From Affinundibacterium fentianense (GTDB taxonomy: Bacteria; Pseudomonadota; Gammaproteobacteria; Burkholderiales; Burkholderiaceae_D), in assembly GCF_018139545.1 (NCBI RefSeq), contig NZ_JAGSPJ010000004.1, forward strand, positions 434,001 to 498,000: DNA of 64,000 nucleotides. The letters are read 5' to 3'. Below the pieces are notes generated by a model, which did not search any database, was not told the origin of the DNA, and worked only from the letters and a program-made list of their open reading frames with translations. Below are positions 16,077 through 16,984 of this stretch, in pieces; position 1 is the first letter of the stretch, and every line of letters begins with the position of its first letter. Position numbers and translations under genes: made by a program.

Positions 16077-16341
16077 AGGTCGGGTGTGGCCCGACAGCCA
16101 GTTACCTTTTTTGCTTCGCCAAAAAAGGTAACCCAAAAAAGGCGACCACGCTGCCACTGGCCTTCGGCTTCCCAATTGAGCAAGACAAAAAATGGGAAAG
16201 CTTCGAAACTCGCTTCCCTTGCAGGGCGCATTTTCGCTTGCAAGCGAAAATCGTAACGCCGGCGATGTGCATGCACATCGAAACCCCGGCTAAACCTCAA
16301 ACAACGAAGCTTTCTTTATCCATTTTCTGTCTTGCACAATT
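16077..16341 (+). repeat. Structured repeat, left copy (direct orientation)
   Basis: Contains four stems. Stem 1: GTCGGG/CCCGAC (16079-16084 / 16090-16095). Stem 2: 12 bp, 16101-16112 / 16121-16132. Stem A: GAAAGCTTCG / CGAAGCTTTC (16196-16205 / 16305-16314), which encloses stem B (22-nt perfect palindrome 16230-16251) and stem C (18-nt perfect palindrome 16263-16280). A second copy in the opposite orientation lies at 16714-16984 with compensatory differences. Confidence 0.85.
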
Positions 16342-16379
16342 GGCAGTGTCAGAAGTGGAACTGCGTTAAAGTCAAAAAC

Positions 16380-16457
16380 AACAGCAACAGCAACAGCAAC
16401 AGCAACAGCAACAGCAACAGCAACAGCAACAGCAACAGCAACAGCAACAGCAACAGC
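16380..16457 (+). repeat. Hexanucleotide tandem repeat (AACAGC)13
   Basis: Thirteen perfect, uninterrupted copies of AACAGC. In frame on the minus strand it reads as an alternating Val-Ala tract, but no real gene surrounds it. Perfect identity of all units suggests recent slippage; the copy number is likely to vary between strains. Confidence 0.95.
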
Positions 16458-16509
16458 AAAACAAACAGTGTCGACCGTCAAGGAGTTCAACTGGGCTAGA
16501 AAATCGAGG

Positions 16510-16586
16510 CGTCATCCCTGCGTAGGCAGGGATCCAGTGACGTTAGGCTTTTAAGCCGCTAGATTCCCGCCTAAGCGGGAATGACG
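16510..16586. repeat. REP-like palindromic repeat unit
   Basis: Two hairpins, ATCCCTGCGTAGGCAGGGAT (16514-16533) and ATTCCCGCCTAAGCGGGAAT (16563-16582), are bracketed by CGTCAT / ATGACG and centred on GGCTTTTAAGCC. Units of this GTCATTCCCGC type are widespread interspersed repeats in bacterial genomes. Confidence 0.8.
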
Positions 16587-16713
16587 ATACATAGAGTAAG
16601 GCATCGCAAAAAGAATCATATTATCTACACGCTGTCATTTTTCCATTAGCCGTTAATGATCGTTGTTTTTGAAGTGGCTTTTGACTTTGACTTACCACCG
16701 TTTGAGACGATGT

Positions 16714-16984
16714 AATTTGTGCTTTACAGAAAATGGATAAGAAAGTGTTGTTGTCTGAGGTGTAGCAGGGAATTCGAGGCGCATGCGCCTCGCCTGCGGA
16801 ACGATGTTCGCCTACAAGCGAACATTCCTGAGAACAGTTTCAACACTTTCCCGTTTTTTGTGATGCACAAATTATGCTAAAGCGTAGCGTAAGCACCCAA
16901 AGGGCGAGTCTACGGTCGCCTTTTTTGGATTACCTTTTTTGGCGAAGCAAAAAAGGTAATTGGCTGTCCGGCCACACCCGACCT
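16714..16984 (-). repeat. Structured repeat, right copy (inverted orientation)
   Basis: Homologous to 16077-16341 when reverse-complemented. Stem A is GAAAGTGTTG / CAACACTTTC (16741-16750 / 16841-16850). Stem C is the 18-nt palindrome 16775-16792. Stem B pairs 16804-16811 with 16818-16825. Stem 2 is 12 bp, 16929-16940 / 16949-16960. All four stems are kept although bases inside them differ from the left copy. Confidence 0.85.

Follow-up and report, generated by a model that had tools for sequence, protein, structure and literature searches.

An apparently undescribed inverted-pair repeat of Undibacterium and other Burkholderiales, with arms predicted to fold into a pseudoknot and a triple helix

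Two diverged, inverted copies of a structured sequence face each other in the window (the whole stretch of 64,000 nucleotides analysed here), and the question they raise is what kind of object they form, and which of its strands is kept for its shape. The initial annotation had suggested a MITE-like mobile element or a non-coding RNA, with selection acting on folded RNA or extruded DNA.

One element with two differing arms

The segment from 16078 to 16983, delimited from the sequence and from profile searches of loci, is one copy of a multi-copy Undibacterium repeat in which two differing arms, A and B, are inverted around a spacer. The inverted copies flagged earlier are indeed present and belong to this single element, which occurs in 30 of the 36 genus genomes searched (own genome included), and their limits are slightly wider than first drawn. 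Profile matches and mismatch counts place arm A at 16078-16358, with its predicted folded strand on the minus strand (outward, from spacer to left flank), and arm B at 16698-16983, with its predicted folded strand on the plus strand (outward, from spacer to right flank). The two are 74% identical across arm positions 8-270, and in this copy the terminal inverted repeats extend over 71 nt and are 96% complementary. Nested in the spacer (16359-16697), which was defined by sequence and by comparison of loci, is a CGTC-tagged palindromic repeat, alongside a (CAACAG)n run.

The element sits between a plus-strand frame (15205-15900), which we take to lie behind metH, and a minus-strand frame (17218-17493). 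Two further features were observed in this neighbourhood: a GTAG-like palindrome, GTAGCGTGGGTTAG..CGTAACCCAC, at 15945-15976 between the 231-aa frame and the element, and a stretch at 17078-17125 (CCTCATCCCCAACCCTCTTCC...) that resembles a degraded TM-ECO/PIT-type triplex motif, with cleaner versions at loci L118 and L126. A 144-aa open frame on the minus strand (15866-16300) crosses arm A, and relatives probably have open frames through the arms annotated as hypothetical proteins. A decayed coding gene, the outcome that would have spoken against the initial annotation, is not supported: the frame from ATGGATAA soon differs in length between them (judged by eye), while base pairing is kept.

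An arm query found 30 matching stretches in the own genome and matches in 35 of the 60 genomes searched (own included), namely 30 of the 36 Undibacterium genomes and 5 of the 24 from other genera. Searching the loci with profiles gave 353 arms, 134 pairs and 79 distinct paired sequences, a sample biased towards strong matches and an exact H1 pattern and containing a few overlaps (cases of an arm paired twice). These 79 comprise 57 A/B, 3 A/A and no B/B combinations, together with 19 that include an unclassified arm; from this distribution we conclude that the pair is the unit. The inverted doublet is therefore the unit here as it is in a REPIN, and divergent pairs are found outside the genus too. 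No match to the element was obtained in plasmid and phage collections.

Element length has a median of 569 bp (range 206-1056), and the window copy is longer because of its CAACAG run, the nested CGTC repeat and apical insertions, one of which, of about 80 nt and containing stem C, is present only in some arms. At 165 distinct ends, strong similarity between copies stops just outside GGTCGGG, beyond which come a weak consensus and T-rich sequence; the base preceding GG is A in 68% and T in 30%, with no constant GTAG. These ends define H1, the terminal GC hairpin GTCGGG..CCCGAC, at 16079-16095 on the minus strand in arm A and, from sequence, at 16966-16982 on the plus strand in arm B, where the window copy has one C-C mismatch. 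In genome G213, about 70 further bases outside H1 are common to the copies (by eye).

The fold of the arms and the strand that adopts it

Covariation strongly supports that each arm has a conserved single-strand fold running from spacer to flank. Read outward, the consensus order is a basal stem P1, a long stem P2, a small P3, the motif GGTCGCC, a T-rich run, an A/T hairpin H2 and the GC hairpin H1. P2 carries an A-rich bulge of 4-5 nt, and its inner loop (TGTYTGAGC...GCGAGTTT) hardly varies. In arm A, on the minus strand, covariation places the 5' strand of P1 at 16344-16358 and its 3' strand at 16146-16159; mismatch counts and covariation place the P2 strands at 16172-16205 and 16305-16343 (bulge at 16315-16319). 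Comparison of arm profiles indicates that the P2 apex (16206-16304) is enlarged by the insertion of about 80 nt with its extra hairpins, including stem C (16263-16280). In arm B, on the plus strand, the 5' strand of P1 was assigned by hand to 16698-16708 with its partner at 16908-16915 (only A-type P1 entered the counts), and the sequence places the inner P2 stem at 16741-16750, paired with 16841-16850.

The paired changes reported between the two window arms are borne out for stems A and C. Stem A, GAAAGCTTCG (16196-16205) with CGAAGCTTTC (16305-16314) against GAAAGTGTTG (16741-16750) with CAACACTTTC (16841-16850), differs by three of them, and stem C, CGATGTGCATGCACATCG (16263-16280) against CGAGGCGCATGCGCCTCG (16775-16792), by two. 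Two copies alone would be thin evidence for selection on a fold. The proposed covariation holds when more copies are compared, and the seven covarying pairs first counted prove far too few, as both sides have changed in 33 of 76 pairs across 39 arms. In these outward arms 95.0% of 2900 cells are in standard pairs, and 296 cells show two-sided changes, compared with 87.5 +- 9.2 in 500 shuffles, none of which reached as high. The alignment consists of 39 outward A-type and distant arms from many genomes, with typical B arms left out; deriving and scoring the structure on one and the same alignment favours the fold, yet a control in which partners were moved by 1 to 3 columns still separates clearly, pairing falling to 39-51%. 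RNAalifold had performed poorly on a mixed A/B alignment in which the two types were misaligned, and the A-type outward alignment was used instead. Pair changes in situ at shared loci (99 with pairing lost, 36 one-sided, 19 two-sided) reveal no compensation in place; they mix copy turnover with mutation and were not counted as support.

A covariance model of P1-P3 matched 33 of 200 sampled Burkholderiales genomes at E <= 0.001, spanning 27 of 109 genera and 16 family labels, with rough E-values and 16 candidates scored per genome. Three matched loci (L292, L301 and L302) are without the expected downstream part and may be chance. The loci outside the genus include 16 divergent pairs, 4 convergent pairs (two genomes of one family) and 13 at which a single arm was found. 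Single arms more often have no readable inner half (12 of 42 vs 11 of 112) and their outer half also scores lower; where P2 can be read, its pairing is not lower in single arms (0.887 vs 0.905, p 0.90).

Mismatches tell the two strands apart. In the inward reading (flank to spacer), P2 contains 138 A-C against 21 G-T mismatches over all arms, or 94:19 after removal of one poorly paired position. The asymmetry recurs within A arms (63:3), B arms (31:9) and other or distant arms (44:9), when each distinct stem is counted once (35:3, 18:8 and 40:9 for A, B and distant arms, respectively), and in H2 (35:2, 10:2 and 21:3); the counts come from related copies and are not independent. An A-C mismatch on the inward reading is a G-U pair on the other strand, which argues that one particular strand of each arm, the outward one, folds. 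Moreover, A and B face in opposite directions, so that a transcript or strand spanning the unit would not explain the asymmetry, and each arm would fold outward on its own. Of the two forms of selection first proposed, a folded single strand is thus retained, and the counts for each arm type taken alone speak against a symmetric cruciform. These counts cannot separate G-T in single-stranded DNA from G-U in RNA. Folding energy is also lower on the outward strand in 182 of 182 cases; we set it aside as main evidence because, of a difference of -10 to -14 kcal/mol, -5 to -9 already arise in shuffles (12 arms per group), a largely compositional effect.

A pseudoknot and a triple helix predicted on H2

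Covariation further predicts that a pseudoknot and a triple helix are built on H2. The H2 loop begins with bases that are complementary to those lying immediately upstream of the T-rich run. In arm A, whose fold lies on the minus strand, H2 is the A/T-rich hairpin at 16101-16132, identified from sequence and from the pseudoknot and triplex comparisons; in its putative pseudoknot, TCGCC at the H2 loop (16116-16120) can pair with GGCGA (16141-16145), and a T6 third strand (16135-16140) is predicted, from family-level covariation, to lie in the H2 major groove. The corresponding plus-strand region of arm B (16916-16945), read from sequence and family covariation, has TCGCC at 16916-16920, the predicted T6 third strand at 16921-16926, the 5' strand of H2 at 16929-16941 and the loop GGCGA at 16941-16945, followed by the 3' purine strand of H2 at 16948-16960.

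For the pseudoknot we used 59 arms found by a model blind to H2, taken from 73 matches after dropping an own-genus locus, overlapping copies, and reverse-strand and short matches. A perfect hairpin of at least 7 bp stands in the expected stretch in 42 of them, and these give 164 of 210 expected pairs, compared with a mean of 141.2 and a maximum of 157 in 2000 loop shuffles; four G078 arms are under-counted, as an extra pair closes their loop. Among the remaining 17, several have a mismatched hairpin by eye and some have none. In four stretches, including L158 and L052, TCGTC/GACGA stands in place of TCGCC/GGCGA.

Base by base and in parallel register, the T-rich run (L1) matches the H2 purine strand at 457 of 525 positions, against a mean of 369.9 and a maximum of 393 in 2000 shuffles; these are 75 distinct combinations from 212 matched stretches, with a few arms counted in two frames. 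The change of the third base with the purine is most direct at positions 3 (A to T in 51/56, G to C in 17/18), 4 (54/58 and 14/17) and 5 (55/57 and 11/12). Asymmetric tracts such as AAGAAAAG distinguish this parallel rule from the alternative in which L1 copies the H2 pyrimidine strand: among 57 combinations the parallel rule is better in 49, equal in 8 and worse in none, and by tract type it is better in 14 of 17 with 3 ties, 9 of the 17 types being one stretch each. These figures replace an earlier search that required the pseudoknot and included reverse-strand stretches (among informative combinations, 45 for, 13 equal, 1 against). The window copies themselves carry AAAAAAGG, with an A6 tract in arm A, and hardly test the register.

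The third strand thus matches the purine strand of the hairpin, as in an intrastrand triplex. At L104, L288, L317 and L323 an A-U pair is inverted to U-A and L1 has a G, although at L288 the G stands opposite U-A only if L1 is shifted by one base; in pyrimidine triplexes, G is the best natural choice opposite T-A. Positions 7-8 of L1 are mostly G opposite G (19/23 and 39/46) and probably lie beyond the triple helix. We know of no copying error that makes mirror repeats, so selection for three strands would be the natural reading.

Mobile end or RNA, and the known systems

The history of the copies bears on what the element may be. The CGTC-tagged palindromic repeat pair nested in the spacer (16510-16586) recurs as a passenger at the same spacer place, with similar borders, in units at about five loci (own genome, macrobrachii, baiyunense), from which we conclude that copying took in the whole unit or at least its middle; the copying could be gene conversion. 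The (CAACAG)n run at 16378-16459 appears to be an expansion of a AACAACAGCAACA-like seed found in other spacers. Occupied loci are common to several species, and in 4 of 17 clusters the unit is flipped in some of them. Among copies at the same locus, mutual nearest relatives are few (7 of 46 A arms and 7 of 43 B arms), a pattern consistent with exchange between copies. One locus at which a relative has the unit holds just a lone H1 in the own genome; since this is the only solo H1 at <= 2 mismatches in 35 genomes, we read it as the scar of a deletion between direct CCCGAC repeats and not as an insertion target. No excision or insertion events were seen. At L253 (about 720-1000) a unit that is complete in U. 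macrobrachii survives in U. flavidum as a decayed remnant.

Tentatively, and with a confidence close to even, we favour a non-autonomous REPIN-like repeat of Burkholderiales, far larger than a REPIN, that would be recognised through its folded single-stranded ends. The unit is a divergent pair of ~210-nt modules with a spacer between them. As covariation shows, each module folds alone on its outward strand, from P1-P2-P3 to the terminal H1, with the H2-based pseudoknot and triple helix as predicted parts. The poorer inner and outer halves of single arms favour this reading; the convergent pairs of one family, the undiminished P2 pairing of single arms and the scarcity of mutual nearest relatives at one locus weigh against it. 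As the folded strand ends at each outer tip, we infer a trans-acting enzyme that would read shape, not sequence, on ssDNA, the pair being presumably copied as a unit. Judging from the shared loci, the flips and the one scar, copies may persist long at gene 3' flanks, where they would be reshuffled by recombination and lost by deletion.

Three candidate helpers were considered and rejected. RAYT-type genes (PF01797) occur in 35 of 36 genus genomes, and the element flanks none of the 30 best PF01797 loci (1.5 kb on each side where the contig allows). A reverse transcriptase is matched in 23 of 36 genomes, with none in the own genome or in the element-rich G033. TnpB (IS605 type, omega RNA) is matched in 7 of 36 genus genomes (5 above cut-off) and is absent from the own genome.

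The strand-specific fold in both arms would also suit a module that acts as RNA, a strong rival that we nevertheless hold to be less probable than the REPIN-like reading. An outward transcript, arising in the spacer or by read-through from a neighbouring gene, would end in the pseudoknot, triple helix and H1, protecting its 3' end or stopping transcription, and the inverted pair would serve both directions. The genomic setting agrees with this: among 57 elements with readable flanks, 35 lie between tandem, 19 between convergent and only 3 between divergent frames, most adjoining a gene 3' end, compared with 88, 37 and 38 of 163 background gaps (22 of the 79 were dropped for short flanks, duplicates or lack of a frame, and open frames only were used, from 60 aa for elements and 100 aa for the background). 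Outside the genus, the four convergent pairs all lie between convergent frames with their arms in sense, and a triple helix within an H-type pseudoknot is known from a bacterial riboswitch (PMC5696562).

Transcription signals speak against it. No promoter is common to the arms: a conserved, outward TTGACY...TGTAAT promoter-like pair (16687-16716 in the window), matching a TTGAC-type/TGTAAT pair in at least 10 of 12 positions, occurs in 51 of 62 B arms, 0 of 72 A arms and 0 of 53 others, and its start would fall inside the fold. We therefore rejected a shared sigma-70 promoter, the pair being confined to Undibacterium B arms. A stricter scan of the window found no promoter, and its three terminator-like sites (one in arm A, outward) compare with 2.0 expected by chance and are no evidence alone. 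Read-through, in turn, meets the difficulty that divergent pairs place the folded strand at the far arm. Rfam gave no family at gathering score in the window, and among 15 matches from four further loci (E up to 5) none reached its own gathering score. A fold that reaches the outer tip, on the tip-ending strand at both ends, would fit a mobile end better than an RNA gene.

A MITE, here an internally deleted DNA transposon that a DDE transposase would mobilise by its terminal inverted repeats, would account for the inverted ends (the 71 nt noted above), the boundary at GGTCGGG and the many copies, and is in our judgement improbable. No direct duplications of at least 3 nt flank the H1 boundary in 51 elements, although the true boundary may lie further out, and the arms are two diverged folds and not simple inverted repeats. 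At two loci in other genomes, L090 (2022-3962) and L098 (2070-4086), arms some 1.5-2 kb apart stand on both sides of one gene, and this gene looks like an enoyl-CoA hydratase, not a transposase. The initial suggestion of a MITE-like mobile element or a non-coding RNA is thus partly borne out: copying of the unit or its middle is shown, but neither a target duplication at the H1 boundary nor a helper was found, and an RNA role keeps some probability.

Selection on H-DNA within the duplex, with the mirror repeat formed by L1 and the pyrimidine strand of H2 as its object and genome instability as its effect, is distinctly improbable. The same mirror symmetry would serve, and bacterial intrastrand triplex repeats exist and accompany instability (PMC4666352), yet the H2 inverted repeat, the loop pseudoknot, P1-P3 and the strand asymmetry would be left unexplained. 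Finally, replication template switching without selection, to which long quasi-palindromes are prone and which would keep palindromes perfect and write paired changes mechanically, is highly improbable, as it predicts no strand asymmetry against the 138:21 ratio in P2, and errors in copying produce repeats that are direct or inverted, whereas the predicted third strand is of mirror type and follows the purine strand in parallel register.

The element is apparently undescribed and widely shared among bacteria: no description of it was found in the open-access literature searched, and a repeat matched in 33 of 200 Burkholderiales genomes has no Rfam entry among the searches of the window and four further loci. 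It would give biologists both a natural structure and a type of repeat that are new and open to testing. Beyond the repeat itself, it is possible, with the balance of our judgement somewhat against it, that it represents a new structured nucleic acid class, in which a pseudoknot and a triple helix of as many as 8 triples in the major groove, with three-way covariation (including G opposite a U-A inversion), would occur across a bacterial order and would have spread as mobile-repeat ends read by shape alone by an enzyme. Third-strand covariation is rarely visible in nature, and the many diverged copies make a test bed for triple helices in vivo.

The closest known relatives are REPINs, which are inverted doublets with a fold predicted for them in ssDNA or mRNA (PMC3116915). 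As described there, REPINs and BIMEs with their RAYT share with our element the spacer-centred inverted doublet, the extragenic location, the many copies, the predicted fold and singlets read as remnants. Unlike them, the present arms measure ~210 nt where REPs are short, have a multi-helix fold with a predicted pseudoknot and triple helix, and come in two types; there is also no fixed GTAG tag, and no RAYT locus among the best 30 is flanked by the element. The GTAG/CGTC palindromic repeats (PMC3733652) are short palindromes of 20-40 bp, often dimers, and the spacer here contains a nested repeat of a CGTC type; H1 differs from them in having no constant GTAG. The main text of that paper contains no occurrence of Janthinobacterium, Herminiimonas, betaproteobacteria or Burkholderiales.

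The triplex itself is already a known kind, given the intrastrand triplex repeats in bacteria described by Holder et al. (PMC4666352). Their TM-ECO/PIT repeats resemble our element in combining a hairpin with a third strand, in being intergenic and multi-copy, and in having no known function. The motif studied in that work, to which our comparison is confined, is a G/C-rich purine-motif triplex (PMC4666352). In our element, unlike TM-ECO/PIT, a pyrimidine-motif third strand is predicted on an A/T-rich stem and is tied to a pseudoknot and a larger fold.

Telomerase RNA, SAM-II and preQ1-II are H-type pseudoknots with a triple helix. So is the guanidine-III riboswitch (PMC5696562). With all of these our element would share its predicted topology, in which the deep groove of stem 2 takes up the first loop. 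Unlike these, our element exists in many copies with no fixed gene link seen, and its predicted runs reach at most 8 triples. The attC sites of integrons are read by their single-strand fold with extrahelical bases, their stem sequence being free. If an enzyme moves the repeats described here, shape is what gets read, a structure-only recognition problem, and recognition by a single-strand fold, as predicted for our element, is what it would share with attC.
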